Shown here piece after piece: positions 5,924-42,950 of a stretch of 64,000 nucleotides of DNA. The translations under genes and the position numbers were made by a program. The first letter of the stretch is position 1. Each line of letters opens with the position of its first letter. The notes under the pieces are model-generated. The model made no database searches and was not told the DNA's origin. It saw only the letters and a program-made list of their open reading frames with translations. Source of the stretch: Congeria kusceri (Eukaryota; Mollusca; Bivalvia; Myida; Dreissenidae); contig CM051027.1 in NCBI GenBank assembly GCA_027627225.1, forward strand, positions 42,221,618-42,285,617, written 5' to 3'.

Positions 5924-5950
5924 CAAGTTTTCTTTCTGCTGTTTTCTTCT

Positions 5951-18164: not shown

Positions 18165-18200
18165 CCTTACTTACCTGGTACAGGGAACACCGTGTGCCAG
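18165..18200 (+). promoter_or_regulatory. U1 snRNA-like 5' head of element 2
   Basis: The first bases after the target duplication contain TACTTACCTGG (18168-18178), identical to nucleotides 2-12 of U1 snRNA. They continue TACAGGGAACACCGTG (18179-18194), which aligns with U1 nucleotides ~13-28 (CAGGG and ACC-TG kept) with small indels. The position at the extreme 5' end parallels the U2 head of element 5. Similarity beyond nucleotide 12 is imperfect, so the U1 origin is an inference, strengthened by the parallel. Confidence 0.6.
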
Positions 18201-18241
18201 ATCTGCCGATTTATAATCGAGAGAAAAGTATTTCGTTCGCA

Positions 18242-19311
18242 ATGTCAACAATAACGAAAAGGTTCGGGCCCCTGGTAGGCCCCGCTATAAACGAAGGTGT
18301 GTTGAATCGAACCCTGAAGATCCAAGGTCAACGTGGCGCCTCAATGGTTAACATAGTTAACCTCATCAGGAGCGTCGGGATTTTGAATGAGGATGTGGAC
18401 GCTGTGGCCTCCGGACCTCCAGGATCTTTGACATATGATGTCGTCTTTACTTCATCAGATAAGTTGTCTTCCTGTTTTACAAATCTAAAGACTGAAACAT
18501 TAACTTTTAAAGATGTGAAATACACATTTGAATCTTATGGCAACCAGGTGGTCAAACTTAGAGTGCATTGGCTGCCGATCTTTGCAGAAAATGGTGTATT
18601 GGAAGAACTGTTCTCCCAGTACGGAACAGTGCTTAAGATCGAGCACGAGAAGCTGACTGTCGGTGATTTTAACACAGTATCTGGTGTTAGGATTATAACA
18701 CTAGAGATTGATGAGAAGGCCAAGACCAATATTCCTCATTTGGTCTCATTTGAATGTGGAGCCAAGGCGCTGGTCACCATGCGGGGGCGGCCCCCTCTGT
18801 GCCTGAGGTGTTGTACCTCGGGCATGTTAGAGGAGACTGCCCCGGCAGTGGGGCTACACGGGCAGTCTCACTTTCAGGCAAGAAAACAGCGGTTGAGCCA
18901 CCCAAGACGGCTCCGGTTTCGGCTCCTGCGCCCGCCCCACCTGTAACAGTCGGGTCGACGGAGTGGACAGAAGTAGTGAGGAGGAAAAAATCCAAAAAGT
19001 CCAAAAATAGTGGTCCGGCGGCCCACCTTGCGACGGACGTGGCCCCGTCTACAACCCCTGATGCTTCTGGGATTGTTACCGCTCCCGAGGTGAAGACCCC
19101 AGCCGACACGCAGGAAATGGAGGTCAGTTGCCAAGGTGCCAAGCGTACCCGTAAACCGGAGGACGACGACCTTGATCTGACTCCACTGCCCCCCAATCGA
19201 GTGGCGAAGAAGGCCATTCGAGGGGGGAGCAGTGGGTCAGATATGATGGGCATTTTATCCCAAGATAGCATCTTAGATGATATCTTGGGAGTCCAGTCCC
19301 CTCATTCTTAA
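18242..19311 (+). pseudogene. ORF1 protein of family B (element 2), frameshifted
   Basis: The ATG at 18242 lies inside the element; the frame also runs back to an ATG in the satellite (18125), not used here. An N-terminal region of ~100 residues is followed by an RRM-like segment beginning KLRVHWLP (~residue 105) and then a zinc knuckle starting PPLCLRC (~residue 185). A 1-nt loss near 18812 shifts the frame inside the knuckle; the downstream frame (YLGHVRGDCP...) continues to TAA at 19309-19311. The C-terminal half is rich in Pro, Thr, Lys and acidic residues. It ends in GILSQDSILDD...QSPHS, a tail shared with family A. The likely role is binding element RNA. The antisense frames here are shadows. 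Confidence 0.85.
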
Positions 19312-19917
19312 TGTTATCTTCGACCCTGACAACGAAATGGCAAGCCTAATGGACATTGATTTTGGATTGTGCTTTTATTTCTACATTATTAATTATGTAG
19401 TTCTCTTATTTATTATTGTGTTAAATATCACAGACTCATTTTGTAAATATTGCACGTTGATTAATGTTAATTTTACGTATGTAAAATGTAACATCTGTGT
19501 ACATGCTGGCTGTATAGTTCTACTGTACAGGTTGCATGTACACATATTCTGTGTAAACTTTATTTTAAACCTTTTAATTATCTCCCCTTTCAATTGTGTT
19601 TTCTCAAAGTATCCAAAACACTACACGTTTAAATCAATCAATAAAATATCAATATACACCTAGTACTTGTAAACGTTATTTTATCGATAGCGATTTACAT
19701 TCACTGTGTTTACATTTAAACCTCGTCTGTCGCTACGACTCGATAAAGTCATCGACTCATTATCGGTTTTATTTCTACCTATTCAGTTCTAAGCGTATTC
19801 TGTACTATCACAACTATTGTTTATTTATCTTACAGCGTACGTTAAACCTCAGTTTATGGGCGCCGCCATCTTTGTTTTAAACTTTGACCTTTTAAGTTTA
19901 AAAAACAGAACATTAAG
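19312..19917 (+). other. ORF1-ORF2 spacer of element 2
   Basis: About 600 bp of AT-rich spacer. A hydrophobic 128-codon frame starts in the end of ORF1 (19277-19663) and is also present, slightly shorter, in element 3. It is not conserved in family A and probably not coding. Near the end is TTTATTTATCTTACAG, a 3'-splice-site look-alike about 80 nt before the ORF2 start. Confidence 0.5.
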
Positions 19918-22900
19918 ATGTCTCTTAAAATAGAAAGCATAAACATTAATGGATTTAGATCCAAAAATAAGCAGCAATATATTAAGGAATATATCATAAA
20001 AAATAAACCTAATGTTTTATGTATTCAAGAAACTTTTATCGATATTTATTTTTTGGCAAAAGACATTGAAAATTTTATTTCTAAAGACTTACTTATATTT
20101 GGAGTTTTTCAAATGGTCAATCGTGTGGTGTCTGTACTATAATTATTGATCCAACTTTAATATGCAGTAAATTTCAGACCGATTTTGATGGTCGGTTTAT
20201 ATATGTTGATGTAAATTATTTAGCACATGATTTCAGAATTTGCAATATTTATGTTCCAAATACTCCTGGGGAAAGAAATGATTTTTTTGAATAAATCAAG
20301 AAATTTCTAGTTTCAAGTAGTAATCTTATTGTCCTTGGAGATTTTAATTTTGTGTCAAATCCAAAATTAGATCAATTAGGTGGTAATATTGATAAATCTT
20401 CTGTGGGTTGTTCTGTTTTTAAAAATATTATTGAAAAATACAAATTAAAAGATACTTACAGATATCTAAACCCTACCTCTAAAGCTACAACATGGGGTAG
20501 AAAATCTAATAATGGAGAGCTCATTAGTTGTAGACTGGATAGAATTTATGTCTGTAATTTAATTATTGAATGTTGCTATGATTCTAAAATTATCCCATTT
20601 CCATTCTCGGACCATGATCTTGTTAGTATTTCTGTTAAATTAGATAATGCTAATGAAAGTATTACTGTTGGTAAGTCTTATTGGAAGCTAAATAATTCTA
20701 TTTTAGAAGATGAAGATTTTGTATCTGCCTTTGAATTTTATTTTCAAGTTATTACAAAAACAAAATTAAATACATTAGACTGGTGGGATGATATAAAAGT
20801 TAAAATCAAAGAATTTTGTATTGATTATAGTAAATCAAAAAGTAAAAATTCATATAAGGAACTTAAAGAATTAATTAAGCAATATCACACTTGTACAGAT
20901 ACCTCTAAAAAATTAGATATAAAAAATTCATTAAATAATTTACACACCAATATTTTTAAAGGGGCATATATTAGAAGTAAAATTAATGTGCTTGATAACA
21001 ATGAGAATTCTAGCACATATTTTCATGACAAAGAATTCCAGAATGGAAATGATAAAATTATTACCCATATAATTGATGGTGATATTGATAAAAAAATCTT
21101 CTAGTGAAATTCTACAAACCTTTAAATCATTTTATGAAACTCAATACACTGAAGAACCTGTAGATATATCCTTAAATTGTAAATTTTTAAACAATTTACC
21201 TAAAGTTTCAATTGATGACAATGTTATGCTTAGCAGTCCTTTAACTTTAGATGAGATCACGTTAGCTCTTAAACAAATGGACCATACAAAATCACCTGGT
21301 AGTGATGGTCTTACTTCTTTTATTTATATCAAATTTATTCATTTATTTGGCCCCATATTGTTAGAATTATATACTACATGTTTTCAACTTGGCCACATGT
21401 CAGAATCTCAAAAATTGTCATTTATTACTCCATTATGTAAAGATAAAGATAATAAAACATCTGTTAAAATCTATAGACCTATTTCTTTATTAAATATTGA
21501 TAGGAAAATTTTATCAAAGGTCATGGCCAATAGATTAAGTAAGGTTTTGGCCTCTATAGTTGGAATTTCACAAACCTGTTCTATTCTTGGGAGATCCATT
21601 TTTGATAATGTACATTTACTGAGAAATATTATCAGTTATGTCGAGCAGAAAAATTTAACAGCTTGTTTTATCTGCTTAGACCAGGAAAAGGCTTTTGACC
21701 GTGTCTCATGGCCTTTCCTGTTTAGCACCCTCCAAGCATTTGGTTTTGATAATAGTTTTATAGATTGGATTAAGGTTTTATACAAAAATATCAAGTCATC
21801 CGTCATTGTAAATGGACATATTTCTGAGTCATTTGCATTGACACGTTCAGTCCGCCAGGGCTGTTCGTTATCTCCTCTCCTATATGTCTTATGTTTAGAA
21901 CCCTTTGCTAAGGTTATACAAGATGACTCAAATATTAATGGCATAAAAACTCCAGGGGGAAAATTTCACGTTAAAATATCCCTTTATGCTGATGACAATA
22001 CTACTTGTCTATCAGATGACAGGTCAATGTCCTTATTTTTTAAACATGTATCAGACTTTGAAAAGGTCTCTGGGTCTAAAATTAATTATAAGAAAAGCTG
22101 TGGAATGTTTTTGGGGAAATGGAAATCAAGGTCTGATCATCCTTTCGGCATTTCTTGGGTAAAAAATTGCAAATTATTAGGTTATAAATTTGGTCACAAT
22201 TTAACAGATGATGATTTATTTCATGATTTGTTAATTAAATTTGAAAGAACACTAAACTTATGGAAATCTCGTGGTAAATCCTATAAAGGTAGAAGTTCTA
22301 TTTTAAACACGTTTGTATTATCTAAAATAATATATTACATACAATGCCAGACAGTCCCTTCGAATTATATTAATTTATTTCAGAAACTTTGTTTCAAATT
22401 TATTTGGGGTAGAAAATTCGAACCTGTGTCAAGAAAAAGTTTATATTTGCCGTTTGTAAAAGGGGGCTTGAATGTTCCAAATATTGCTTTGAAAATATAC
22501 GCATTTTATTTAAGTCACATTTTTTAAATTATTAACAGTCATCCATCTCCATGGGTTGAGTTTGCAATCTATTGGATTGGGATGCAGTTAAGGGAATTTA
22601 ATCCTTCTATTGCCTCAAATAACATTCCTCATAGTGATGTTATTCCCCCGTTTTATTCTAAATGTTTAAAAGTTTTTAATAATTTTGTTGAAAATTCTCA
22701 AACAAGTGTTCATTCAACATGGCCTGTCAAATACATTTATAATTATTTAATTGAATCAATGAATCATGAACCAAAATGTATTAAAGATTTTAAGTCTGTG
22801 AATTTCAAGAATACTTTTAAGAATGTGTTTTCTGCTGCAATCGATTCAGTGTGTAGAAACACCTGTTATAACTTAGTCCATAACACTATTTTCATAAATC

Positions 22901-23382
22901 AATTTTTATATTGTAAAAACATGTCAAAATCTAGTAAGTGCACTTTTTGTTCTAGTCCTGAAACTATTGATCATTTGTTTATCCAATGTTATATGTCTAC
23001 TTCGGTTAACAAAGTTGTATTATACTTAATGCATGTCCTTACTGCAGATAACCATAAACTTTCTGTAAAAGAATTTCACTATTTAGACCTTGATAATGCA
23101 TATGGTTCTGAAATCAATTATGTATTTTTAATCTTATTGTCAGAATCCAGACATATTATTTGGAAATGCCGAAATGAAGTAAAGTATGAAAACAAGTTGT
23201 ACAGTCCTTTTGATATTATATGCAAATTGATAAGTAGATTAAAATACCGCATTTTGTTGGATTTTAAAAGATTGAAATTAGAAAAATTTGAATTAATTTG
23301 GGGAGAATATTGTGATGTTGTTTCAGATAAAATACTTTTTAGACAGGATTTAAATCCTGCAGTTTATGCTAATGTACATTAA
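19918..23382 (+). pseudogene. ORF2 endonuclease-reverse transcriptase, family B (element 2)
   Basis: Starts at ATG 19918 (MSLKIESININGFRSK), the N terminus of an AP-endonuclease; LCIQETF, LGDFNF and FSDHDLVSI carry expected catalytic motifs. The reverse transcriptase follows: KSPGSDGLT, YRPISLLNIDRKI, LDQEKAFDRVSW, RQGCSLSPLLY and catalytic YADD at 21985-21996. A C-terminal knuckle CTFCSSPETIDHLFIQC (C-x2-C-x7-H-x4-C) precedes the stop at 23380-23382. Lesions: a ~2-nt loss near 20088; TAA at 20292-20294; an extra A in an A7 run (21090-21096); a nonsense change near 22525. Corrected length would be about 1,150 residues. The TAA and A7 lesions are shared with element 3. Confidence 0.92.
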
Positions 23383-23440
23383 TTAATTTATCGTATTTGA
23401 TTGTATAAGTCTACTTCCTTTGTGCTGTTTGTGTTCTTCT

Positions 23441-23515
23441 CTCTGATTTCAGGATGACGACGTCGAGGTGCGCTGAGAAGAGGTACTCGGGTTGTCATCC
23501 TGAGTCGGAGAGGAG
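23441..23515 (+). other. Post-stop RNA hairpin, family B (element 2)
   Basis: CAGGATGACGAC (23450-23461) pairs with GTTGTCATCCTG (23491-23502) with one G-U; flanking CTCTGATT and AGTCGGAG extend it imperfectly. The position after ORF2 and the GGATGA/TCATCC core match family A while inner stem bases differ. The pyrimidine tract plus TTTCAG before the 5' arm resembles a splice acceptor. Confidence 0.7.
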
Positions 23516-23656
23516 GCCACATAGTGTTTATAGTGCTTTGAGTGTTCATAGTGTGCATATTTGAATGTTATGTATATTTATATTAATGTACATCATCTCT
23601 TTTTATCATCAGTGTTCCTGTGTTTCATTTCAATCATAATTTCATATACTCTGTAA

Positions 23657-23763
23657 CCCAGTAATGGGCTCATTTTCATTTCACTCATTGAAGTCCATTA
23701 TCACTCATATTTCATCACTATGTATATTCGACATACCATTGCCTCATTTTTCACCCATGTAGG
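23657..23763 (+). other. Conserved 3' UTR block, family B (element 2)
   Basis: Begins with the CCCA-GTAA-TGGG mini-hairpin (23657-23668) and ends at CATGTAGG. Shares ordered blocks with family A (6170-6275, 42145-42249) although the two families differ widely elsewhere in non-coding sequence. Confidence 0.6.
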
Positions 23764-23863
23764 ACATAGGAACATTGTACTAATATTTCCCTATAGTATA
23801 GAGGTTCATTTGTTTTCTAATCAAACACAATTTATTATAGTGTCACACAATTTCAGGCCTAAC

Positions 23864-24010
23864 TGGTTGGTGGGGCTGGGGCGGGTGGATAGTGGTACCG
23901 AAGGCTATAGACGTGCCTCAGCCCCACCACCCAGAGCAGCCGTAGACTTCTTTTTATATTCTCTGCGGATCTTCACAGAGAGTGCCCGAGCATGATCTGG
24001 GGGGGTTTGC
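23864..24010 (+). other. GC-rich structured patch in family B 3' UTR (element 2)
   Basis: A GC-rich island in an otherwise AT-rich element. GGTGGGGCTG (23869-23878) pairs perfectly with CAGCCCCACC (23919-23928) around a 40-nt loop. It is followed by GCCGTAGACT, a motif also present in the GC-rich patch of family A, and by a G run. The 91-codon frame across it (23720-23995) recurs in elements 3 and 4 but is not conserved in family A. Confidence 0.55.
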
Positions 24011-24282
24011 GGAGAATACACTTTTTCAAACCTTTTTTATATTACGGTCTACAGTTTCTATTATTTTGTATCACTTACTTCAGTTTTATTTGCCTCATTA
24101 AGTAGTGTGACAAATTTTCATGTTTGATAATTTTAATATGTATATATATATATACAGATATAACCTCTATACAACCTACTAATTAAGACCCGCTTCATAT
24201 AGGTCGGTGACTTACTATTTGTTAAAATATCATACTTCCATTTGACTAAATTATTTACAATATTAATACGTATCTCCAATTT

Positions 24283-24390
24283 AAAAGCGTGCAGACGCAG
24301 TGAAAGACTGTTATTTCCTCTTTAAACGTGCAGACGTGATAATGACTGTTTTACTTATTATTTAAACGTGCAGACGTGTGAAGACTGTTT
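24283..24390 (+). repeat. Three mini-hairpin repeats in family B 3' UTR (element 2)
   Basis: Three copies spaced ~40 nt. The first is GCGT-GCAG-ACGC; the second and third are ACGT-GCAG-ACGT. All are followed within a few bases by GACTGTT. The G-C pair in copy one replacing the A-T pair in the others is a compensatory change supporting a 4-bp stem with a GCAG loop. Confidence 0.65.
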
Positions 24391-24494
24391 CAGTGAACTA
24401 CATATAATCTCTTTTATTTCAATCTTAAATGTTTAGTATATAAAAAAGTCACCCTCATACTTGTAAATATTAATTTAGATTCTTTTAGCGGGTA

Positions 24495-24517
24495 CTTGGG
24501 GCTATCTACACCCCAAG
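24495..24517 (+). other. 3'-terminal hairpin, family B (element 2)
   Basis: CTTGGGG (24495-24501) pairs with CCCCAAG (24511-24517) around the 9-nt loop CTATCTACA; the surrounding GTAC bases extend the stem with one bulge. AATAAA and TTTTATGCAAAAG follow, as in family A. Confidence 0.7.
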
Positions 24518-24551
24518 GTACGAATGAATAAATTTTATGCAAAAGAAAAAA

Positions 24552-25395
24552 ATCTCGGATATTGAAATACATCCAAAACAGAGAGCACCGTATTGTATCA
24601 GGTAAAACCTGCGACTGGATATAACTTAAATCTACAAACACTGTAGCCAAACTATATGGCACATTCTTTTTAAGGTTTCCAGGTGGCAAGAGTTTTCGCA
24701 ATACTTATTATCTCTTCGTCGTGCCGAATTGCGTCTCTCGAGTAGAATCATTGCGATAATTTGGAGACCGCAACTATCTCTGTTAGATACACGTTCGAAG
24801 TTCGTTACCGGTTTTTCTTAAGCAAGTCTGAATATCTCAATTTGTTTGCAACGTTTTGTTATCGTTGGGATTTTATCGGCGGTTCCGGTGAAACCTGCCA
24901 ATTGAAATTAATGGGAGTTATAACTGAGGTAGCAACCCCAATTTTATATTGATCTTTTGACAATATGAAGCGCATTCACTTTGCCAAGCGTTTTACTTTT
25001 CGTCGGGCTTACTTGAATATTTTAGCTAGAATCTTTGCAATACTTTGGAGAGTGTAAATTACTCAGATAGCGACGCGTTCGAAGTTCACAATTGATGTTC
25101 ATATTTGTTTTTTAATATATCCAAAACTATTTGCAACGTATTATAAACGTTTCGGTCCGTTGGCGTTTCCGTTTCCGGTGAAACCTGCGAATGGATATAA
25201 CTGAAAGCTACAAACACTGTAGCCACACTAGTGTCACATTCATTTTGAGGTATCGTGTTCGGAAGTGCTTTTGCCATATAACTATCATATTGCCAAGCGT
25301 TTCTCTCTTCGTTGTGGCAAATTGTGTCTCTGGAGAAGAATCATCTCAGTTAGCGACCCGTTTCGAAGTTCACAATGTATGTTTATGTAAAAACT
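24552..25395. repeat. Satellite segment between elements 2 and 3
   Basis: Starts with the 3' copy of the element 2 target duplication (24552-24582) and contains about three monomers. Ends at TATGTAAAAACT, where element 3 begins. Confidence 0.9.
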
Positions 25396-26435
25396 GGTAG
25401 GCCCCGCTATAAACGAAGGTGTGTTGAATCGAACCCTGAAGATCCAAGGTCAACGTGGCGCCTCAATGGTTAACATAGTTAACCTCATCAGTTGAGCGTC
25501 GGGATTTTGAATGAGGATGTGGACGCTGTGGCCTCCGGACCTCCAGGATCTTTAACATATGATGTCGTCTTTACTTCATCAGATAAGTTGTCTTCCTTTT
25601 TTACAAATCTAAAGACTGAAACATTAACTTTTAAAGATGTGAAATACACATTTGAATCTTATGGCAACCAGGTGGTCAAACTTAGAGTCCATTGGCTGCC
25701 GATCCTTGTAGAAAATGGTGTACTGGAAGAACTGTTCTCTCAGTACGGAACAGTGCTTAAGATCGAGCACGAGAAGCTGACTGTAGGTGATTTTAGCACA
25801 GTATCTGGTGTTAGGATTATAACACTAGAGATTGATGAGAAGGCCAAGACCAATATTCCTCATTTGGTCTCATTTGAATGTGGAGCCAAGGCGCTGGTCA
25901 CCATGCTGGGGCGGCCCCCTCTGTGCCTGAGGTGCATGTACCTCGGGCAATTTAGAGGAGACTGCCCCGGCAGTGGGGCTACACGGGCAGTCTCACTTTC
26001 AGGGAAGAAAACAGCGGTTGAGCCACCCAAGACGGCTCCAGTTTCGGCTCCTGCGCCCGCACCACCTGTCAAAGTCGGGTCGACGGAGTGGACAGAAGTA
26101 GTGAGGAGGAAAAAATCCAAAAAGTCCAAAGAGAGTGGTCCGGCGGCCCACCTTGCGACGGACGTGGCCCCGTCTACAACCCCAGATGCTTCTGGGATCG
26201 TTACCCCTCCCGAGGTGAAGACCCCAGCCGACACGCAGGAAATGGAGGTCAGTTGCCAAGGTGCCAAGCGTACCCGTAAACCGGAGGACGACGACCTTGA
26301 TCTGACTCCACTGCCCCCCAATCGAGTGGCGAAGAAGGCCATTCGAGGGGGAGCAGTGGGTCAGATATGATGGGCATTTTATCCCAAGATAGCATCTTAG
26401 ATGATATCGTGGGAGTCCAGTCCCCTCATTCTTAA
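25396..26435 (+). pseudogene. ORF1 of element 3 (family B)
   Basis: Lacks the original start. A short insertion after AACCTCATCA near 25491 shifts the frame; a long frame then runs 25492-26370. The RRM-like region and knuckle are in one frame here, unlike element 2. The knuckle reads CLRCMYLGQFRGDC: the histidine expected in C-x2-C-x4-H-x4-C is glutamine. Loss of one G near 26350 shifts the conserved C-terminal tail out of frame before the stop at 26433-26435. Confidence 0.85.
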
Positions 26436-27041
26436 TGTTATCTTCGACCCTGACAACGAAATGGCAAGCCTAATGGACATTGATTTTGGATTGTGCTTTT
26501 ATTTCTACATTATTAATTATGTAGTTCTCTTATTTATTATTGTGTTAAATATCACAGACTCATTTTGTAAATATTGCACGTTGATTAATGTTAATTTAAC
26601 GTATGTAAAATGTAACATCTGTGTACATGTTGGCTGTATAGTTCTACTGTACAGGTTGCATGTACACATATTCTGTGTAAACTTTATTTTAAACCTTTTA
26701 ATTATCTCCCCCTTTCAATTGTGTTTCATCAAAGTATCCAAAACACTACACGTTTAAATCAATCAATAAATATCAATATACACCTAGTACTTGTAAACGT
26801 TATTTTATCGATGGCGATTTACATTCACGGTGTCTACATTTAAACCTCGTCTGTCGCTACGACTCGATAAAGTCATCGACTCATTATCGGTTTTATTTCT
26901 ACCTATTCAGTTCTAAGCGTATTCTGTACTATCGCAACTATTGTTTATTTATCTTACAGCGCACGTTAAACCTCAGTTTATGGGGTCCTCCATCTTTGTT
27001 TTAAACTTTGACCTTTTAAGTTTAAAAAACAGAACATTAAG
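26436..27041 (+). other. ORF1-ORF2 spacer of element 3
   Basis: Counterpart of 19312-19917 in element 2, nearly identical, with the same TTTATTTATCTTACAG motif. No independent gene supported. Confidence 0.5.
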
Positions 27042-30000
27042 ATGTCTCTTAAAATAGAACGCATAAATATAAATGGATTTAGATCCAAAAATAAGCAGCA
27101 ATATATTAAGGAATATATCATAAAAAATAAACCTAATGTTTTATGTATTCAAGAAACTTTTATCGATATTTAGCTTTTGGCAAAAGACATTGAAAATTTT
27201 ATTTATAAAGACTATACTTATATTTGGAGTTTTTCAAATGGTCAATCGTGTGGTGCCTGTACTATAATTATTGATCCAAATATAATATGCAGTAAATTTC
27301 AGACCGATTTTGATGGTCGGTTTATATATGTTGATGTAAATTATTTAGCACATGATTTCAGAATTTGCAATATTTATGCTCCAAATACTCCTGGGGAAAG
27401 AAATGATTTTTTTGAATAAATCAAGAAATTTCTAGTTTCAAGTAGTAATCTTATTGTCCGTGGATATTTTAATTTTGTGTCAAATCCAAAATTAGATCAA
27501 TTAGGTGGTAATATTGATAAATCTTCTGTGGGTTGTTCTGTTTTTAAAAATATTATTGAAAAATACAAATTAAAAGATATTTACAGATATCTAAACCCTT
27601 CTTCTAAAGCTACAACATGGGGTAGAAAATCTAATAATGGAGAGCTCATTAGTTGTAGACTGGATATAATTTATGTCTGTAATTTAATTATTGAATGTTG
27701 CTATGATTCTAAAATTATCCCAATTCCATTCTCGGACCATGATCTTGTGTTAGTATTTCTGTTAAATTAGATAATGCTAATGAAAGTATTACTGTTGGTA
27801 AGTCTTATTGGAAGCTAAATAATTCTATTTTAGAAGATGAAGATTTTGTATATGCCTTTGAATTTTATTTTAAAGTTATTACAAAAGCAAAATTAAATAC
27901 ATTAGACTGGTGGGATGATATAAAAGTTAAAATCAAAGAATTTTGTATTGATTATAGTAAATCAAAAAGTAAAAATTCATATAAGGAAATTAAAGAATTA
28001 ATTAAGCAATATCACACTTGTACAGATACCTCTAAAAAATTAGATATAAAAAATTCATTAAATAATTTACACACCAATATTTTTAAAGGGGCATATATTA
28101 GAAGTAAAATTAATGTGCTTGATAACAATGAGAATTCTAGCACATATTTTCATGACAAAGAATTCCAGAATGGAAATGATAAAATTATTACCCATATAAT
28201 TGATGGTGATATTGATAAAAAAATCTTCTAGTGAAATTCTACAAACCTTTAAATCATTTTATGAAACTCAATACACTGAAGAACCTGTAGATATATCCTT
28301 AAATTGTAAATTTTTAAACAATTTACCTAAAGTTTCAATTGATGACAATGTTATGCTTAGCAGTCCTTTAACTTTAGATGAGATCACGTTAGCTCTTAAA
28401 CAAATGGACCATACAAAATCACCTGGTAGTGATGGTCTTACTTCTTTTATTTATGTCAAATTTATTCATTTATTTGGCCCCATATTGTTAGAATTATATA
28501 ATACATGTTTTCAACTTGGCCACATGTCAGAATCTCAAAAATTGTCATTTATTACTCTCTTATGTAAAGATAAAGATAATAAAACATCTGTTAAAAACTA
28601 TAGACCAATTTCTTTATTAAATATTGATAGGAAAATTTTGTCAAAGGTCATGGCCAATAGATTAAGTAAGGTTTTGGCCTCTATAGTTGGAATTTCACAA
28701 ACCTATTCTATTCCTGGGAGATCCATTTTTGATAATGTACATTTACTTAGAAATATTATCAGTTATGTCGAGCAGAAAAATTTAACTCCTTGTTTTATCT
28801 GCTTAGACCAGGAAAAGGCTTTTGACCGTGTCTCATGGCCTTTCCTGTTTAGCACCCTCCAAGCATTTGGTTTTGATAATAGTTTTATAGATTAGATTAA
28901 AGTTTTATACAAAAATATCAAGTCATCCGTCATTGTAAATGGACATATTTCTGAGCCATTTGCATTGACACGCTCAGTCCGCCAAGGCTGTTCGTTATCT
29001 CCTCTCCTCTATGTCTTATTTTAGAACCCTTTGCTAAGGTTATACAAGATGACTCAAATATTAATGGCATAAAAACTCCAGGGGGGAAAATTTCACGTTA
29101 AAATGTCCCTTTATGCTGATGACAATACTACTTGTCTATCAGATGACAGGTCAATGTCCTTATTTTTTTAAACATGTATCAGACTTTGAAAAGGTCCCTG
29201 GGTCTAAAATTAATTATAAGAAAAGCTGTGGAATGTTTTTGGGAAATGGAAATCAAGGTCTGATCATCCTTTCGGCATTTCATGGGTAAAAAATTGCAAA
29301 TTATTAGGTATAAATTTGGTCACAATTTAACAGATGATGATTTATTTCATGATTTGTTAATTAAATTTGAAAGAACACTAAACTTATGGAAATCTCGTGG
29401 TAAATCCTATAAAGGTAGAAGTTCTATTTTAAACACTTTTGTATTCTCTAAAATAATATATTACATACAATGTCAGACAGTCCCTTCCCATTATATTAAT
29501 TTATTTCAGAAACTTTGTTTCAAATTTATTTGGGGTAGAAAATTCGAACATGTGTCAAGAAAAAGTTTATATTTGCCGTTTGTAAATGGGGGCTTGAATG
29601 TTCCAAATATTGATTTGAAAATAAACGCATTTTATTTAAGTCACATTTTTAAAATTATTAACAGTCATCCAGCTCCATGGGTTGAGTTTTCAATCTATTG
29701 GATTGGGATGCAGTTAAGGGAATTTAATCCTTCTATTGCCTCAAATAACATTCCTCATAGTGATGTTATTCCCCCGTTTTATTCTAAATGTTTAAAAGTT
29801 TTTAATAATTTTTTTGAAAATTCTCAAACAAGTGTTCATTCAACATGGCCTGTCAAATACATTTATAATTATTTAATTGAATCAATGAATCATGAACCAA
29901 AATGTATTAAAGATTTTAAGTCTGTGAATTTCAAGAATACTTTTAAGAATGTGTTTTCTGCTGCAATCGATTCAGTGTGTAGAAACACCTGTTATAACTT

Positions 30001-30508
30001 AGTCCATAACACTATTTTCACAAATCAATTTTTATATCGTAAAAACATGTCAAAATCTAGTAAGTGCACTTTTTGTTCTAGTCCTGAAACTATTGATCAT
30101 TTGTTTATCCAATGTTATATGTCTACTTCGGTTAACAAAGTTGTATTACTCTTAATGCATGTCCTTACTGCAGATAACCATCAACTTTCTGTAAAAGGAT
30201 TTCACTATTTAGACCTTGATAATGCATATGGTTCTGAAATCAATTATGTATTTTTAATCTTATTGTCATAATCCAGACATATTATTTGGAAATGCCGAAA
30301 TGAAGTAAAGTATGAAAACAAGTTGTACAGTCCTTTTGATATTATATTCAAATTGATAAGTAGATTAAAATACCGCATTTTTTTGGATTTTAAAAGATTG
30401 AAATTAGAAAAATTTGAATTAATTTGGGGAGAATATTGTGATGTTGTTTCAGATAAAATACTTTTTAGACAGGATTTAAATCCTGCAGTTTATGCTAATG
30501 TACATTAA
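27042..30508 (+). pseudogene. ORF2 endonuclease-reverse transcriptase of element 3 (family B)
   Basis: Same domain order as in element 2. Private lesions: TAG near 27172, a 2-nt gain near 27748, TAG in the palm region near 28896, several 1-nt indels between 29020 and 29300, and TAA near 30270. Shared with element 2: TAA at 27417-27419 and the extra A in the A7 run at 28217-28223. The YADD codons survive at 29112-29123 but the frame around them is broken. Clearly inactive. The natural stop is at 30506-30508. Confidence 0.9.
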
Positions 30509-31676
30509 TTAATTTATCGTATTTTATTGTATAAGTGCACTTCCTTTTTGCTGTTTGTGTTCTTCCCTCTGATTTCAGGATGACGACGTCGAGGTGCGCT
30601 GAGGAGAGGTACTCGGGTTGTCATCCTGAGACGGAGAGGAGGCCACATAGTGTTTATAGTGCTTTGAGTGTTCACAGTGTGCATATTTGAATGTTATGTA
30701 TATTTATATTAATGCACATCATCTCTTTTTATCATCAGTGTTCCTGTGTTTCATTTCAATCATACTTTCATATACTCTGTAACCCAGTAATGGGCTCATT
30801 TTCATTTCACTCATTGAAGTCCATTATCACTCATATTTCATCACTATGTATATTCGACATACCATTGCCTCATTTTTCACCCATGTAGGACATAGGAACA
30901 TTGTACTAATATTTCCCTATAGTATAGAGGTTCATTGGTTTTCTAATCAAACACAATTTATTATAGTGTCACACTCTTTCAGGCCTAACTGGTTGGTGGG
31001 GCTGGGGCGGGTGGATAGTGGTACCGAAGGCTATAGACGTGCCTCAGCCCCACCACCCAGAGCAGCCGTAGACTTCTTTTTATATTCTCTGCGGATCTTC
31101 ACGGAGAGTGCCCGAGCATGATCTGGGGGGGTTTGCGGAGAATACACCTTTTCAAGCCTTTTTTATATTACGGTCTACAGTTTTTATTATTTTGTATCAC
31201 TTACTTCAGTTTCATTTGCCTCATTAAGTAGTGTGACAAATTTTCATGTTTGATAAATTTTATATGTATATATATATATACAGATATAACCTCTATACAA
31301 CCTACTAATTAAGACCCGCTTCATTTAGGTCGGTGACTTACTATTTGTTAAAAAATCATACTTCCATTTGACCTAATTATTTACAATATTAATACGTATC
31401 TCCAATTTAAAAGCGTGCAGACGCAGTGAAAGACTGTTATTTCCTCTTTAAACGTGCAGACGTGATAATGACTGTTTTACTTATTATTTAAACGTGCAGA
31501 CGTGTGAAGACTGTTTCATTGAACTACATATAATCTCTTTTATTTCAATCTTAAATGTTTAGTATATAAAAAAGTCACCCTCATACTTGTAAATATTAAT
31601 TTAGATTCTTTTAGCGGGTACTTGGGGCTATCTACACCCCAAGGTACGAATGAATAAATTTTATGCAAAAGAAAAA
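30509..31676 (+). other. 3' UTR of element 3
   Basis: Carries the same structures in the same order as element 2: post-stop hairpin (CAGGATGACGAC / GTTGTCATCCTG), CCCA-GTAA-TGGG block, GC-rich inverted repeat, three mini-hairpin repeats, and the CTTGGGG/CCCCAAG terminal hairpin before the tail. Confidence 0.75.
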
Positions 31677-31965
31677 TAATGCATATGGTTCTGAAATCAA
31701 TTATGTATTTTTAATCTTATTGTCAGAATCCAGACATATTATTTGGGAATGCCGAAATGAAGTAAAGTATGAAAACAAGTTGTACAGTCCTTTCTATATT
31801 ATATGCAAATTGATAAGTAGATTAAAATACCGCATTTTGTTGGATTTTAAAAGATTGAAATTAGAAAAATTTGAATTAAATTGGGGAGAATATTGTGATG
31901 TTGTTTCAGATAAAATATTTTTTAGACAGGATTTAAATCCTGCAGTTTATGCTAATGTACATTAA
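31677..31965 (+). pseudogene. ORF2 C-terminal fragment of element 4
   Basis: In-frame with the family B ORF2 end (NAYGSEINYVFLILLSES ... AVYANVH) and terminated at 31963-31965. No domain with known activity is retained; the initiating ATG lies in the tail of element 3 and is fortuitous. Confidence 0.85.
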
Positions 31966-33140
31966 TTAATTTATCGTATTTGATTGCATAAGTGCACTTC
32001 CTTTTTGCTGTTTGTGTTCTTCTCTCTGTTTTCAGGATGACGACGTCGAGGTGCGCTGAGGAGAGGTACTCGGGTTGTCATCCTGAGTCGGAGAGGAGGC
32101 CACATAGTGTTTATAGTGCTTTGAGTGTTCATAGTGTGCATATTTGAATGTTATGTATATTTATATTAATGTATATCATCTCTTTTTATCATCAGTGTTC
32201 CTGTGTTTCATTTCAATCATAATTTCATATACTCTGTAACCCAGTAATGGGCTCATTTTCATTTCACTCATTGAAGTCCATTATCACTCATATTTCATCA
32301 CTATGTATATTCGACATACCATTGCCTCATTTTTCACCCATGTAGAACATAGGAACATTATACTAATATTTCCCTATAGTATAGAGGTTCATTGGTTTTC
32401 CAATCAAACACAATTTATTATAGTGTCACACTCTTTCAGGCCTAACTGGTTGGTGGGGCTGGGGCGGGTGGATAGTGGTACCGAAGGCTATAGGCGTGTC
32501 TCAGCCACACCACCCAGAGCAGCCGTAGACTTCTTTTTATATTCTCTGCGGATCTTCACAGAGAGTGCCCGAGCATGATCTGGGGGGGGGGGGGGTTTAC
32601 TGAGAATACACTTCTTCAAACCTTTTTTATATTACGGTCTACAGTTTCTATTATTTTGTATCACTTACTTCAGTTTCATTTGCCTCATTAAGTAGTGTGA
32701 CAAATTTTAATGTTTGATAATTTTTATATGTATATATATATATACAGATATAACCTCTATACAACCTACTAATTAAGACCCGCTTCATATAGGTCGGTGA
32801 CTTACTATTTGTTAAAAAATCATACTTCCATTTGACCTAATTATTTACAATATTAATACGTATCTCCAATTTAAAAGCGTCCAGACGCAGTGAAAGACTG
32901 TTATTTCCTCTTTAAACGTGCAGACGTGATTATGACTGTTTTACTTATTATTTAAACGTGCAGACGTGTGAAGACTGTTTCATTGAACTACATATAATCT
33001 CTTTTATTTCAATCTTAAATGTTTAGTATATAAAAAAGTCACCCTCATACTTGTAAATATTAATTTAGATTCTTTTAGCGGGTACTTGGGGCTATCTACA
33101 CCCCAAGGTACGAATGAATAAATTTTATGCAAAAGAAAAA
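31677..33140 (+). mobile_element. Element 4: 5'-truncated family B LINE directly behind element 3
   Basis: Begins at TAATGCATATGG, equivalent to ~23094 in element 2. It contains the last ~95 codons of ORF2 and the full 3' UTR with all conserved structures; the G run after the GC-rich patch is expanded (32581-32595). The A-rich tail joins satellite at AACTATAATATTG, the same monomer position used by elements 1 and 5. No satellite separates it from element 3. Confidence 0.9.
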
Positions 33141-36100
33141 TAACTATAATATTGCAAAGCATTTTTTGCTTCGTCGTGCTGAATTGCGTCCTTCGAGATG
33201 AATCATTGCGATATCATTGCGACAGAGCAAATATCTTAGTAAGCGACACGTTCGGAGCTAATAGATAATCGATGTTTAAAAAAGAAATATGAAATGTATC
33301 CAAAACAGTTTGCAACGTATTGTATACGTTTCGTTATGTTGTCGTTTCAGGTGAAACCTGCGAATGGATATAAATGGAAGGTATAAATACGATCGACACC
33401 GTGTTCTGCAACCGACCTTTTGGTGTTGTGTAAACAATGCACTCTTTGCACGCTATCTCGAATATTGAAATTCATCCAAAACAGAGAGCACCGTATTGTA
33501 TCATGTAAACCCTGCGACTGGATATAACTGAAATCTACAAACTCTGTAGCCACACTAGTGTCACATTCTTTTTAAGGTTTCCAGTTCGCAAGAGTTTTCG
33601 TAATAGTTATTGTCTCTTCGTCGTGCCGAATTGCGTCTCTCGAGTAGAATCATTGCGATAATTTGGAGACCGCAACTATCTCTGTTAGATACACGTTCGA
33701 AGTTCGTTACCGGTTTTTCTTAAACAAGTCTGAATATCTCAATTTTTTTGCCACGTTTTGTTATCGTTGCGATTTTATCGGCGGTTCCGGTGAAACCTGC
33801 CAATTAAAATAAATGGGAGTTATAACTGAGGTAGCAACCCCAATTTTATATTGATCTCTAGAGAATATGAAGCGCATTCACTTTGCCAAGCGTTTTACTT
33901 TTCGACGGGCTTACTTGAATATTTTCGCTAGAATCTTTGCAATACTTTGGAGAGTGTAAATTATTGAGATAGCGACGCGTTCGAAGTTCACAATTGATGT
34001 TCATATTTTTTTTTTTATATATCCAAAACTTTTTGCAACTTATTATAAACGTTTCGGTCCGTTGGCGTTTCCGTTTGTGGTGAAACCTGCGTATGGATAT
34101 AACTGAAAGCTACAAACACTGTAGCCTCACTAGTGTCACATTCATTTTGAGGTATCGTGTTCGGAAGTGCTTTTGCCATATAACTATGATATTGCCAAGC
34201 GTTTCTCTCTTCGTTGTGGCAAATTGTGTCTCTGGAGAAGATTCATCTCAGTTAGCGATCCGTTTCGAAGTTCACAATGTATGTTTATGTAAAAACTATG
34301 AAATATATGCAAAACAGTTTGCAACGTAATGAATACGTTTCGTAATGTTGGCGTTTCCGGTAAAACCTGCGAATGGATGTAATTGAAAGCTACAAACACT
34401 GTAGCCACACTACTGTCACATTCATATTAAGGTTTCGACTCCGGAACCGCTTTCGCAATATAACTATAATATTGGAAAGCATTTTTGGCTTCGTCGTGCT
34501 GAATTGCGTCCTTCGAGATGAATCATTGCGATATCATTGCGACAGAGCAAATATCTTAGTAAGCGACACGTTCGGAGCTAATAAATAATCGATGTTTATA
34601 CAAGAAATATGAAATGTATCCAAAACAGTTTGCAACGTATTGTATGCGTTTCGTTATGTTGGCGTTTCATGTGAAACCTGCGAATGCATATAAATGGAAG
34701 GTATAAATACGATCGACATTGTGTTCTGCTACCGACCTTTTTGTATTGTGTAAACAACGCATTTTTTGCACGCTATCTCGGATATTGAAATACATCCAAA
34801 ACAGAGAGCACCGTATTGTATCAGGTAAAACGTGCGACTGGATGTATCTTAAATCTACAAACTCTGTAGCCAAACTAAATGGCACATTCTTTTTAAGGTT
34901 TCCAGTTCGCAAGAGTATTCGCAATAGTCATTCTCTCTTCGTCGTGCCGAATTCCGTCTCTCGAGTAGAATCATTGCGATAATTTGGAGACCGCAACTAT
35001 CTCTGTTAGATACACGTTCGAAGTTCGTTACCGGTTTTTCTTAAACAAGTCTGAATATATCAATTTTTTTGCCACGTTTTGTTATCGTTGCGATTTTATC
35101 GGCGGTTCCGGTGAAACCTGCCAATTAAAATAAATGGGTGTTATAACTGAGGTAGCAACCCCAATTTTATATTGATCTCTTGAGAATATGAAGCGCATTC
35201 ACTTTGCCAAGCGTTTTACTTTTCGACGGGCTTACTTGAATATTTTCGCTAGAATCTTTGCAATACTTTGGAGAGTGTAAATTATTGAGATAGCGACGCG
35301 TTCGAAGTTCACAATTGATGTTCATATATTTTTTTTAATATATCCAAAACTTTTTGCAACTTATTATAAACGTTTGGTCCGTTGGCGTTTCCGTTTGCGG
35401 TGAAACCTGCGTATGGATATAACTGAAAGCTACAAACACTGTAGCCTCACTAGTGTCACATTCATTTTGAGGTATCGTGTTCGGAAGTGCTTTTGCCATA
35501 AAACTATAATATTGCCAAGCGTTTCTCTCTTCGTTGTGGCAAATTGTGTCTCTGGAGAAGAATCATTTCAGTTAGCGACCCGTTTCGAAGTTCACAATGT
35601 ATGTTTATGTAAAAACTATGAAATATATCCAAAACAGTTTGCAACGTAATGTATATGCTTCGTAATGTTGGCGTTTCAGGTGAAACCTGCGAATGGATAT
35701 AAATAGAAGGTATAAATGCGATCGACACTGTGTTCTGCTACCGACCTTTTGGTATTGTGTAAACAACGCATTTTTTGCACGCTATCTCGGATATTGAAAT
35801 ACATCCAAAACAGTGAGCACCGTATTCTATCAGGTAAAACCTGCGACTGGATATAACTTAAATCTACAAACTCTGTAGCCAAACTAAATGGCACATTCTT
35901 TTTCAGGTTTCCAGTTCGCAAGAGTATTCGCAATAGGCATTCTCTCATCGTCGTGCCGAATTCCGTCTCTCGAGTAGAATCATTGCGATAATTTGGAGAC
36001 CGCAACTATCTCTGTTAGATACACGTTCGAAGTTCGTTACCGGTTTTTCTTAAACAAGTCTGAATATCTCAATTTTTTTGCCACGTTTTGTTATCGTTGC

Positions 36101-36381
36101 GATTTTATCGGCGGTTCCGGTGAAACCTGCCAATTAAAATAAATGGGAGTTATAACTGAGGTAGCAACCCCAATTTCATATTGATCTTTTGACAATATGA
36201 ATCGCATTCACTTTGCCAACGTTTTACTTTTCGTGGGGCATGCTTGAATATTTTAGCTAGAATCTTTGCAATACTTTGGAGAGAGTAAATTACTCAGAGA
36301 GCGACGCGTTCGAAGTTCACAATTGATGTTCATATCTGTTTTTAATTTATCCAAAACTATTTGCACCGTATTATAAACGTT
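33141..36381. repeat. Satellite block between elements 4 and 5
   Basis: About 3.2 kb of tandem monomers. The stretches 33300-34620 and 34620-35950 resemble each other over more than 1 kb, indicating higher-order repetition with a unit of roughly 1.3 kb here. It ends at TATTATAAACGTT before element 5. Confidence 0.85.
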
Positions 36382-36385
36382 CTCT

Positions 36386-36414
36386 TCGCTTCTCGGCCTT
36401 TTGGCTAAGATCAA
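36386..36414 (+). promoter_or_regulatory. U2 snRNA 5' head of element 5
   Basis: Twenty-nine bases identical to nucleotides 2-30 of the highly conserved U2 snRNA, including TCGCTTCTCGGCCTTTTGGC (36386-36405) and CTAAGATCAA at the end. The next bases (AGTTTTTCTG) diverge from U2. This is the U2 5' stem-loop I region. It stands at the extreme 5' end of the element, immediately upstream of its 5' UTR. An exact 29-nt match at this position is not plausibly chance. It is too short to be a U2 gene. Confidence 0.9.
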
Positions 36415-36458
36415 AGTTTTTCTGTGCGACAGAATCGTTTTTGTGTTAAACTTTCAAT

Positions 36459-37446
36459 ATGATTTCGGTGGAATTACCTGCTATAGAGGGGAAGGCGGTG
36501 ATGACGGACGTGATGGAAAGATCCATAAGACTATTCAATAAGAATGGAATTACGGTGTATGAAGCTGCCAGAGCGTTGACAACTTGTAACGTTAAACCGG
36601 ACGAAATTGAAACAATTTCTAAGGGACAATCCAACACCTCTGTTGAGATTGTTCTTAAATTCAAAGAGTCCATGAGAAAGATCAGTCTTACAGGACAGAC
36701 ATTGAAAAGTGGCAGTAAACAGTTTGAAGTGTCTAAACTGAACGTGAAGAGAATTCTTTTAAAGGTACACTGGTTGCCAGTGTACTTTGATGCGGAGTTG
36801 CTCAAGAACATCTTTTCTTCATATGGAAAGGTGCTAAAAGTAATGGAAGATTTTTTCATGTATGAAGACGTTCAAATTGCGTCCGGCGTGAAGCGTGTGT
36901 TATTAGAAGTTGAGAATGACAAAATTGCGTCCATTCCCCACTTATTGAATTTTAGGTGCGGGACGAGAGCGCTAGTCACTCTCTATGGACGTCAAGTGCC
37001 ATACTATCGGACATATTAGGAAGGACTGCCCGGACTTGGTAGCGAAAGCTGCGCCAGTCGTAGAAAACGTCCAGACAAGGGAAACTGAAAAACCAACTCC
37101 AGAAGCCCCCAGGACGGAGGAACTGTCACCCGTGCAGACAGAACCAGTAAGGGAACCAGAAGAGGAACCGGCTACCACCAGCGAGCCTGAGTCTCGGGTC
37201 GAGACTCAGTCCATGGAGGCGTCGGTGACGGAAGAAGAAGAAGCCATAGATGTCGACCCGGATGGTCGGGACAAGAGACGAGCAGGACCGGATGACGATG
37301 TCCTGTCTCCACTCCCTAAGAACAAGCGGATGGCGTCCGGCACAACAGGTAAAAAGACTAAGTCTAGCGGTAGGAGGCTGTCTGGGATACTTTCCCAGGA
37401 CAGCTATATGGATGATTTGTTATCAGCACAGTCGCCGCACTCTTAA
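36459..37446 (+). pseudogene. ORF1 protein of family A (element 5), frameshifted
   Basis: Starts MISVELPAIEG at 36459, 45 nt after the U2 head. An RRM-like segment begins LLKVHWLP (~residue 100). After ALVTLYGR (near 36990) about 14 nt are missing relative to the family B layout; this removes the first cysteines of the knuckle and shifts the frame. The rest (KCHTIGHIRKDC ...) continues from 36985 to the stop at 37444-37446. That part is rich in Glu, Pro and Thr and ends GILSQDSYMDD...QSPHS. Role by family: RNA binding in the retrotransposition particle. Confidence 0.85.
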
Positions 37447-38438: not shown

Positions 38439-41400
38439 ATGGCGAATCTAAAAATAGCAACTTTAAATGTGAACGGTCTTATCACTAAAGAAAGACAACT
38501 CTTTTTACACAACTTTTTATCTTCAAATAACTTAGACATACTTTGTTTGCAAGAAACTCATGTTAATAATTGTATAACGGCAAAGAATATTGAAAATGTT
38601 TTAAATTTGAAAAATAAAATTGCATGGAGCTTTGGAGAGGTGTTGCTACTATTGTAATAAATCCCGATATAAAAATAGATTGCTTTCAAAGTGACTTAGA
38701 CGGGAGATTACTATACGTTGATTTATCTGTTCTTGACTTTAAATTTAGAATTATTAATATTTATGCTCCTAATGTAGAACATGAAAGGACGGAATTCTTT
38801 GAAAGTTTAAATATTCATTTAGTCACTAGTAGACATGTATTCATAGCAGGAGATTTTAACTGTGTTTTAAATACTAAATTAGACAAAATTGGCGGTAATG
38901 CTGATAGAGGAATTATTGGTTCTAAATCTCTGTCACAGATAGTTTCTAAATTTAATTTATTTGATGCCTATAGATATTTATACCCAACACAAAAATGTGT
39001 TACATGGTTTAGAAAATTAGGGGATGACGATAATTCATATATAGGATGTAGATTAGATAGATTTTATGTCAGTAAATTATTGCAAACGAATGTTATAAAT
39101 TGCACTAATATGCCTTTTTCAATTTCAGATCATGATCTGGTATTAATAGAATTAAATATTGAACACACCATTACTTTTGGCAATTCTTATTGGAAATTTA
39201 ATAATTCATACTTAGAAGACAATGACTTTATTGAAACCTTTAAATATTATTGGGCAATTATATCCAGAACTAATGACATTACTTTAGAATATTGGGAAAA
39301 TATTAAACTTTTGATAAAAGAATTCTGTATTGGTTATGGTAAATGTAAAAGAAATGAATTATATTACAATGTTAAACTTCTAAAAAATCAATATAAAACT
39401 TCGACGGATTTAAAAGAAAAACATGAATATAAAATACAAATTGCTAACTTAGAAAATGAATTACATAAAGGTTTCGTTATTAGAAGTAAATCAAATCTTA
39501 TTGACAGTAATGAAAATCCTTCTTCTTCTTTTGCAAACGTTGAACAAGCCCATGGCTTAAACAAAACCATAACTTGTATTAATTATAATGGAACAGATTG
39601 TAAATCTTCTGAAACTATTTTAAACAGTTTTAGAGATTTTTATTCAACATTGTATACCAGTGAACCTGTTAATGATTCTCTAAATGACGTATTTTTAAAT
39701 GATTTACCGAAAGTTTCAATTGAAGAAAATGAAATGTTATCACAAAATATAACAACAGAAGAAATTTTAATTGCTTTAAAGGACATGGAGAAAAATAAAT
39801 CCCCTGGTAGTGATGGTCTGACTGCAGAATTCTATTTGAAATTTTTTGATTTGTTTGGAAATATATTAAAAGCTATTTATGATAAATGTATTGACTTAGG
39901 TCACATGTCATCATCACAAAAATTATCATATATAACACTTCTATGTAAAGATAAAAATAATACTTGTGATGTTAAAAATTACAGACCGATTTCCCTGTTG
40001 AATATTGATAGAAAACTTTTGTCAAAAATTTTAACAACTAGATTAGGTGCTGTTTTACCGTCTATTATCTCTGACAGTCAAACTTGTTCAATAATAGGAA
40101 AAACCATCTTTGATAATGTTCATCTACTAAGAAATATTTTTGATTATTGTGAACAAAAGAATATGTCTGCGTGTTTTATCAACTTAGACCAAGAAAAGGC
40201 ATTTGATAGAGTATCTTGGGATTATATGTATAATGTTCTAAAATCTTTTAATTTTTCCCCCAAATTTATATCCTTTATTAAAGTTCTATATGCTGATATA
40301 CAATCATCAGTTATTGTAAACAACCATATATCTGCGCCTTTTAAATTATCAAGATCTGTAAGACAAGGCTGTTCACTCAGTCCCCTTTTGTATATTTTAT
40401 GTTTAGAACCTTTTATTTTAAAAATAAGAAATAACCCAATGATTAAAGGAATAAAAGTACCCGGTTCAAACTTAGAAGTAAAGATTTCCGCATACGCTGA
40501 TGACAACACTTCAATTTTAACAGATGATGTGTCCATATCCCATTTCTTTAAAGATGTCAAACTTTTTGAATCAATTAGTGGGTCGAAAATTAATTATAAG
40601 AAATCTAATGGTGTTTTTATTGGAAAATGGAGAAACAGATCTGACCACCCTTTTGGTATATCATGGGTAAAACATTGTAAAGTGTTAGGTTATTATTTTG
40701 GTTATGATATTAATTATGATGAAATATGGTCTAATTTATTTTTAAAATTTACAAAAGTTCTTAATTTATGTAGATCCTTTAAAATGTCATATAAAGGAAA
40801 GAGCAACATTCTTAATTCTTTAGCCTTTTCTAAAATACTATATTACATAAGTGCTGGACATTTTCCAGAAATATATATTAATATGTTTCAAAAAGCATGC
40901 TTTAAATTTATTTGGTCTTCTTCTTTTGAACCTGTTTCTAGAAAGACTTTATTCCTGCCTCTGAAAGAGGGTGGTTTAAATGTTCCAAATGTTTTGTTTA
41001 AATGGTATTCTTTGTTGTTATCACATGTACAAAAGTTTATTTCTGATTATAAAGCCCCATGGACTCATTTTACTAAATATTGGATAGGTTTTAAATTGAG
41101 AAAATATAATAAGAAATTTGAAAGCAATTTATACCCAAAAAGTGATTGTTTACCTTTATTCTATAAAAATTGTCTCAAAGCTTTAGATGTAATTTTAAAA
41201 ATAAAAGAAGATATTAGTTTTATGAATATTACAGCAAAAGAGTTTTACTGTACATTGCTGGCAGTAGATGACACAGTTGTTAAATGTAAAGTAAATTTCC
41301 CACAAATTAACTTTTCTACTTCTTTTAAAAATGTATTTTCAAATGCCATTGATCCATGTCATAGAAATATTTGTTTTACTTTAGTTCATGATGTAGCTTA

Positions 41401-41899
41401 TGTTAATTATTTCCTTTATTTAAAAGGAATTTCAAAAGTCAAGAATTGCTATTTCTGTAAGAATATTGAGACTGCTTCTCACCTATTTATAGAATGTTCC
41501 TTTTTCAATCCTCTCAATAAGACGGTTTTATATTTATTAAATATTGCTTCAGATTCCAAAATTACTCTTTCTGAAAAGATGTTTAGATTTTTTGATTTTA
41601 AATCAGATAGTGCTGGTCACAATTACACCTTTTTAGTTATTTTGTCTATTTCTAGATTTGTTATTTGGTTTTTAAGAAATCAAGCAAAACATCATAAAAA
41701 ACAATTTAAAGTTATTGATAGCCTCATTATGTTTTTGTCATTATTAAGATTGAGAATTTTCATTGACTTTAAAAGAATGACTGATTTTAAATTTGTAGAA
41801 ACATGGGGTTTGTATGACATAATTGCTAATGTAAATAACCAACTTATTTTCGGTCAAGACAGTTTTGTTGAATTCTATGTTAAAAAATTTAAACTGTAA
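38439..41899 (+). pseudogene. ORF2 endonuclease-reverse transcriptase, family A (element 5), one frameshift
   Basis: ATG at 38439 gives MANLKIATLNVNGL, an AP-endonuclease N terminus, with LCLQETHV. Near 38630 a small deletion shifts the frame after KIAWSFG. The downstream frame (from 38624) is open for 1,091 codons: endonuclease motifs INIYAPN, IAGDFN and SDHDLVLIEL; reverse transcriptase motifs KSPGSDGLT, YRPISLLNIDRKL, LDQEKAFDRVSW, RQGCSLSPLLY and YADD (40493-40504). The C-terminal knuckle CYFCKNIETASHLFIEC begins at 41447. Total corrected length is about 1,150 residues. It would nick target DNA and copy element RNA at the nick. One lesion only, so it decayed recently. Confidence 0.93.
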
Positions 41900-42902: not shown

Positions 42903-42950
42903 TTGTTACGTATATTAATAAAGTTTTATGCAAAAGAAAAAAAAAAAAAA

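Follow-up and report, generated by a model that had tools for sequence, protein, structure and literature searches.

Introduction

The element described here invites comparison with a small set of known systems, among them Keno, which we take to belong to the Tx1 clade. Keno, Utopia (U2), Dada-U1 and Dada-U6 are the only elements of snRNA genes named in PMC4640811 (2015); Keno is given there as a U2-gene LINE of frogs, fish, lancelet and hydra, and the 3′ U2 flank of Phytophthora Utopia is placed at nucleotide (nt) 39. Like Keno (PMC4640811), the LINEs of Congeria kusceri studied here have an apurinic-type endonuclease and sit in the same region of U2 genes; unlike Keno, they occur in a bivalve, as several co-resident families, with off-target copies that carry a U2 head and with a sister lineage in U1 genes. 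Utopia (PMC4640811) shares the U2 target region, precise 3′ and variable 5′ boundaries and some off-target copies, but its endonuclease is restriction-like, as in R2, whereas the one found here is L1-type.

Crocodilian SINEU elements have similar short 5′ heads derived from U1 or U2; they are non-coding, whereas here ORF1 and ORF2 are coded and sisters reside in U1 and U2 genes, which sets the element apart from a SINE. SINEU are reportedly moved by a Tx1 LINE. The R2 element of 28S rDNA is likewise a LINE inside a multicopy RNA gene. R2 is believed to be co-transcribed with 28S rDNA, and its RNA is released from the rRNA leader by a ribozyme; inserted copies of the present LINEs, by contrast, retain their snRNA leader. 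Dada-U1 elements also insert in U1 genes (PMC8869645), but they are DNA transposons and not LINEs. Among titles and abstract openings of the best-ranked literature matches, with few subscription journals covered, we found no U1-targeting LINE and no U2-headed LINE copies; two mollusc LINE papers (PMC10294476, PMC11203168) mention Tx1 and gave no match for Keno or snRNA.

Results

A U2-headed LINE in satellite DNA

The window, i.e., the whole 64,000-nucleotide stretch analysed, contains a full-length LINE, family A, which sits in satellite DNA and has a segment of U2 snRNA (the U2 head) fused to its 5′ end:

36098..36381 (+), 5′ satellite flank of family A
36382..36385 (+), CTC and T, four additional bases separating the satellite from U2 nt 2; the T occupies the place of U2 A1
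36386..36415 (+), U2 head, U2 snRNA nt 2-31 (identity to nt 33, 36417), based on the match, shuffles, Rfam and array sisters
36420..36434 (+), weak candidate hairpin TTCTG-TGCGA-CAGAA just 3′ of the head, with counterparts at about the same position in sister families
36459..37019 (+), start of ORF1, open for 186 aa and then continuing in another frame
38624..41899 (+), ORF2, endonuclease/reverse transcriptase, 1091 aa open (1159-1161 aa in intact array copies)
42917..42950 (+), 3′ end, AATAAAGTTTTATG and A-rich tail, then satellite CTATGATATTGCC; the boundary lies inside the A run

The first-pass annotation had read 29 bases as U2 nt 2-30, ending up 45 nt before ORF1, and this was borne out by an exact match (TCGCTTCTCGGCCTTTTGGCTAAGATCAA, 36386-36414) and by an ORF1 ATG at 36459, 45 nt on. 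U2 of this genome, in the array and in single genes, begins ATCGCTTCTCGGCCTTTTGGCTAAGATCAAAGTGTAGTATCTG and reads ...GATCAAAGTGTAGTATCTG; human U2 has one A fewer, and this extra A carries the identity of the window copy on to nt 33 (36417). Comparison with the array sisters L051 and L052 places the boundary between head and element at U2 nt 31 (36415). A chance match was rejected as the source of the head, since its core 24-mer occurred once in the window even at 3 mismatches and in none of 100 shuffles; a U2 pseudogene beside an unrelated LINE was rejected because sisters join at the same place. An Rfam scan at the gathering threshold missed the head, and a relaxed run recovered it (34.2 bits, E 0.0035, gathering score 46), the low score being explained by the presence of only the head of U2. 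Several heads have T in place of the snRNA A1, and an extra G, which could be cap-derived, precedes some of them (window 36385 and 18167; L055, L070, L075, L095).

The window copy is damaged, as ORF1 continues in another frame. Its ORF2 matched RVT_1 (E 1.4e-31) and, in this copy lacking the N-terminus, Exo_endo_phos below the curated cut-off (E 0.0036); full-length ORF2 relatives have PF03372, and the best solved-structure match is LINE-1 ORF2 (E 5e-69). The element is thus an L1/Tx1-type LINE, with an apurinic-type endonuclease and an RVT_1 reverse transcriptase in ORF2. A putatively coding open frame of about 270-310 aa lies between ORF1 and ORF2 (window 37485-38411; also in L033, L036 and L037). 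In the candidate hairpin, 3 of 11 predicted pairs showed changes on both sides, with a covariation term of -0.47.

LINEs resident in U2 gene arrays

The genome searched comprises 1.55 Gb, with contigs numbered C and fetched loci numbered L; matches are duplicated on contig pairs (C134/C209, C297/C623), perhaps two haplotypes, so that genome counts may be inflated. The U2 core word gave 380 matches at up to 3 mismatches, with positions listed for 100. Contig C183 is a U2 array with a unit of 1574 bp, in which many spacings are about 6.7 kb longer. Twenty stretches were fetched, and in the nine read at both junctions U2 was interrupted by a LINE or LINE remnant, including one 5′-truncated LINE and one remnant of about 29 bp. 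GTATCTG followed the LINE tail in all nine. Genome-wide, 97 LINE tails were joined to U2 GTATCTGTTCTTATC, all at one base, nt 37 as counted in this genome's U2, the A-tail in front of it masking one base; a search with a closely related, slightly different pattern gave 133 exact tails (100 listed). Insertion into U2 snRNA genes, a hallmark of Keno, is therefore present here with 97 junctions, alongside off-target copies.

Array copies were 81-86% identical to the window element over aligned parts, and several had open ORF1 and an ORF2 of 1159-1161 aa, others being broken. At L036 (C183:60000-67300) the sequence after the tail of a family X LINE is GTATCTGTGCGACAGAT, with which a family Y LINE begins; we read this arrangement as a family X insertion at a U2 target site kept in front of the older family Y resident. 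Families X and Z of the same array (L032 versus L037) have different leaders and junctions and identical RT regions, as if their 5′ parts had been swapped.

Sisters and off-target U2 heads

A search with the first 315 bp of the window element returned 387 candidates, of which 40 were scored, all beginning at query base 1, i.e., at the head; the query itself included the head, and the scored set, which left the C7 array outside, may be biased towards copies with a head. Recurrence of one head across many copies, proposed at first pass as a sign of fixation, was thus observed among near kin, within the bounds of a headed query. The two sisters C297:19170-19486 and C623:18205-18521 are 98% identical to these 315 bp and are preceded by the U2 promoter and U2 nt 1-31, with a 2-nt difference from the window leader just after nt 31; both contigs also have tail-U2 junctions. 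They are close kin of the window element, not necessarily its parent.

At L093 (C183:177780-178000), U2 nt 1-45 and one G precede a second U2 nt 1-31 with a family X LINE, whose tail joins GTATCTGTT at 6.69 kb, the distance expected for family X; two ends were read. This locus resembles a regular insertion that duplicated 9 bp of its target, the head having arrived with the element. L095 is its U1 counterpart, in a divergent U1 gene. The other on-target residents read have a single head each, from which we infer that the end of the cDNA paired with its target.

Off-target flanks of U2-headed copies comprised the window satellite, a C14 repeat (four copies, one flank), ORF1-like sequence (C134, C209 and C297 copies) and LINE tails on C14 (L054; L055/L056). 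The four C14 copies with their common flank may be DNA duplications. At every flank read the U2 head started at nt 1 or 2, and the same held for all off-target snRNA heads read, U1 and U2 together. The 5′ junction was identical in and outside snRNA genes in the three families compared (Z at U2 nt 38, Y at U2 nt 44, B at U1 nt 28). Exact-pattern searches of the genome revealed no further off-array U2 head: with nt 1 other than A the single match was the window, and with a base other than T before A1 the six matches were the four C14 copies, L093 and one U2 gene. Such patterns need an exact head from nt 2 and miss heads that share the promoter's last base (preceded by T), so that start positions are better tested by the 315-bp search and the family B BLAST described below.

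Two side observations concern these copies. At L054-L056 (C14, about 35.83 and 36.2 Mb), LINEs lie head to tail, their tails abutting the U2 head of the LINE that follows. D-type copies (C134, C209) have a family-like ORF1 start, but over the RT region the longest L045 frame reaches only 30% identity; L045 forms a very long branch in the RT tree, and D-type copies are possibly chimeric or nested.

Family B and the U1 genes

A second family in the window, family B, carries a U1 head:

18165..24552 (+), copy B1, related ORF2, A-rich tail; 30-bp direct repeat at 18135-18164 / 24553-24582
18168..18194 (+), U1 head, U1 snRNA nt 2-28 of this genome, 27 identical bases
25396..33141 (+), copy B2, 5′-truncated and without head, with an internal duplication, 98% identical to B1

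An Rfam U1 search gave 42 matches, 41 above the cut-off; of eight U1 loci fetched, one was an intact U1 gene and seven had a LINE tail joined to U1. LINE tails meet U1 at 19 places in the genome; the U1 sequence resumes with GACAGG (nt 33) in 8 of them and with GGCGG (nt 37) in 11. LINE 5′ ends lie behind the U1 promoter and U1 nt 1-28 at L071, L072, L074, L077 and L078. These fixed-base 3′ joins and promoter-linked 5′ ends, read from separate junctions, identify a LINE that targets U1 genes.

BLAST with the U1-headed 5′ end of family B does not require the head. It gave 23 rows, 15 of which reached the head and started at query 1-6 (U1 nt 1-3; the window itself 4 bases before); the other eight started past the head, none inside it, two of the rows being pieces of one copy. 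Fourteen loci were fetched: five had the U1 promoter and one (L068) retained roughly 22 bp of this promoter; six, representing five distinct sites, were off-target with a U1 head, and two (L065, L066) had no U1. BLAST and pattern searches together yielded 11 distinct off-array U1-headed sites, window and L095 included; five of these came only from the pattern requiring nt 2 onward, and the LINE after the head was judged by eye.

Copies without a head

L065 and L066 (C4, 75.55 Mb and 10.74 Mb) are family B copies that share an alternative 5′ end, CGGATTAAAAAAGCG..., without U1; a degenerate U1-like stretch lies just upstream of it in L066. In a tandem array on C7, with LINE tails spaced at about 6.29 kb, the single junction read (L096, C7:12510640-12510960) joins a tail directly to the 5′ UTR and ORF1 of the next copy, without a U2 head. 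Copies starting at the 5′ UTR, which the first-pass annotation would have counted against a U2 head, are thus represented by this one junction, in a relative. The snRNA head is not universal: a LINE appears to acquire its U2 head while residing in a U2 gene, and not every such LINE has to carry one. From L065, L066 and the C7 junction it follows that use of an snRNA promoter is not the only route to copies.

The satellite as a second target

Two further LINEs lie in the satellite of the window. One is

5225..7029 (+; 5′ limit provisional), remnant of a LINE whose ORF2 C-terminus and 3′ tail resemble those of family A, the tail abutting the same satellite site (CTATAATATTGCC)

and the other, apparently of a different type, lies on the minus strand (46487-50478). 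Three of the four LINE 3′ ends in the window satellite (about 7029, 33141 and 42950) abut A|CTATRATATTG, which occurs 28 times in the window; the fourth abuts TCTCGGATATTG. Genome-wide, 14 tails had ATATTG in the 28 bases that follow; 13 of these tails are LINE-like, and the remaining one (C13) is apparently a chance match. A control pattern gave one match. Of three more off-target tails read, L098 and L100 abut such a satellite site and L097 does not. Between its 5′ and 3′ flanks, the window insertion lacks 119-130 bp of satellite found in intact monomers.

Relatives in other genomes

The ORF2 search scored 7984 candidates and found 1317 relatives, the nearest 80% identical, partly in MAGs of clam symbionts, whose hosts we presume to be clams. 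A contig of a Taylorina symbiont MAG has a LINE with 49% ORF2 identity and a tail joined to U2 GTATCTG, the same base. LINE-bearing contigs in such MAGs (L079, P0014, P0015), which include two proteins annotated as bacterial reverse transcriptases, are probably host contamination. In an RT tree of 80 of 129 segments (own families and metagenome proteins), family B, P0006 and P0008 joined a group with the U2 families of this genome (90/88), and the Taylorina U2 LINE fell outside it. Its position suggests that U2 targeting may be ancestral and U1 targeting derived, with targets known for a minority of the tree rows. Viral contigs contained no exact U2 head, no U1 head of this genome's type and no ORF2 relative.

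Discussion

The window family A element is very probably an off-target copy whose U2 head marks the start of an RNA made from a U2 promoter and reverse-transcribed to its 5′ end. Indeed, the head is most likely the trace of a parent that sat inside a U2 gene, because sisters with 98% identity follow a U2 promoter and U2 nt 1-31; the second complete U2 head at L093 indicates that the head travels with the element, which supports such a parent. A one-off jump is disfavoured. The first-pass annotation had offered transcription from a copy in a U2 gene at about nt 30 as one origin, and both observations speak for it. U1 and U2 genes with resident LINEs would explain the U2-headed and the U1-headed families of the window alike; neither these genes nor the U1-headed family had been noticed at first pass.

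From a mechanistic point of view, RATATAAY, picked after viewing the snRNA genes, lies 44-45 bp upstream of base 1 in all four snRNA genes compared (array U2, two C8 U2, one U1), and 11 off-target flanks all lack it; this placement suggests that it is the PSE, and the LINEs are probably transcribed from the snRNA promoter. RNA polymerase would start at snRNA base 1 and read to the junction and into the LINE, the RNA ending at the element's own AATAAA signal. The LINE proteins would then nick an snRNA gene or, occasionally, satellite DNA at a motif just 5′ of ATATTG, and reverse-transcribe the RNA. Where the target is an snRNA gene, base pairing between it and the snRNA-derived end of the cDNA would give a seamless join; elsewhere that end would stay behind as a scar that identifies the gene from which the RNA came. 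The fuller proposal is that snRNA genes serve as home, promoter and homology arm, that RNA starts at U2 or U1 base 1, that the head guides joining and that the home switched from U2 to U1; for this whole we see the chances as evenly poised.

Other accounts of the heads were weighed against the same data. The segment might have become a fixed module of the 5′ UTR, with off-target parents transcribed from a promoter of their own: the four C14 copies have a common head and flank, and the candidate hairpin follows the head in seven aligned leaders, although some of these leaders disrupt 2 of the 6 pairs. Yet the PSE-like motif was missing from all 11 off-target flanks checked, and separate off-target sites need RNA that begins at exactly nt 1-2, which residence in an snRNA gene supplies; we consider such a module improbable. 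A one-off template jump, in which the reverse transcriptase finishes the LINE RNA, moves to U2 or U1 snRNA and runs to its 5′ end, was the other origin proposed at first pass. It predicts heads that end at the snRNA 5′ end, as they do, and additions of this kind have been proposed for the SINEU heads of crocodilians. The junction within the snRNA should however vary, and it is the same on and off target in families Y, Z and B. Moreover, sisters behind U2 promoters supply the head with no jump, although family A differs from them by 2 nt after nt 31; the jump is thus not needed, and we rate it very improbable.

Spread at the DNA level, recombination having moved fragments of U2 or U1 arrays together with their LINEs, would fit the duplicate loci (C134/C209, C297/C623 and the C14 copies) and the roughly 22 bp of U1 promoter retained before the head of L068. 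Array fragments should nevertheless bring their promoter, and the other off-target sites read break at base 1-2; B1, for its part, carries an A-rich tail and is bounded by a target duplication of 30 bp, so that this account seems scarcely credible.

If snRNA genes do act as home, promoter and homology arm, off-target copies are bar-coded by the gene that transcribed them. The promoters of snRNA genes are PSE-driven, 3′ ends are formed by Integrator and the normal product is a short, non-polyadenylated RNA. Should these promoters also make long polyadenylated LINE messages, promoter and 3′-end choice can be uncoupled. For target-specific LINEs, the heads would preserve in the genome the point at which transcription began, and heads that are merged versus duplicated on target suggest two ways of closing the 5′ junction. 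With a U1-targeting LINE beside a U2-targeting sister, switching of target between snRNA genes becomes testable.
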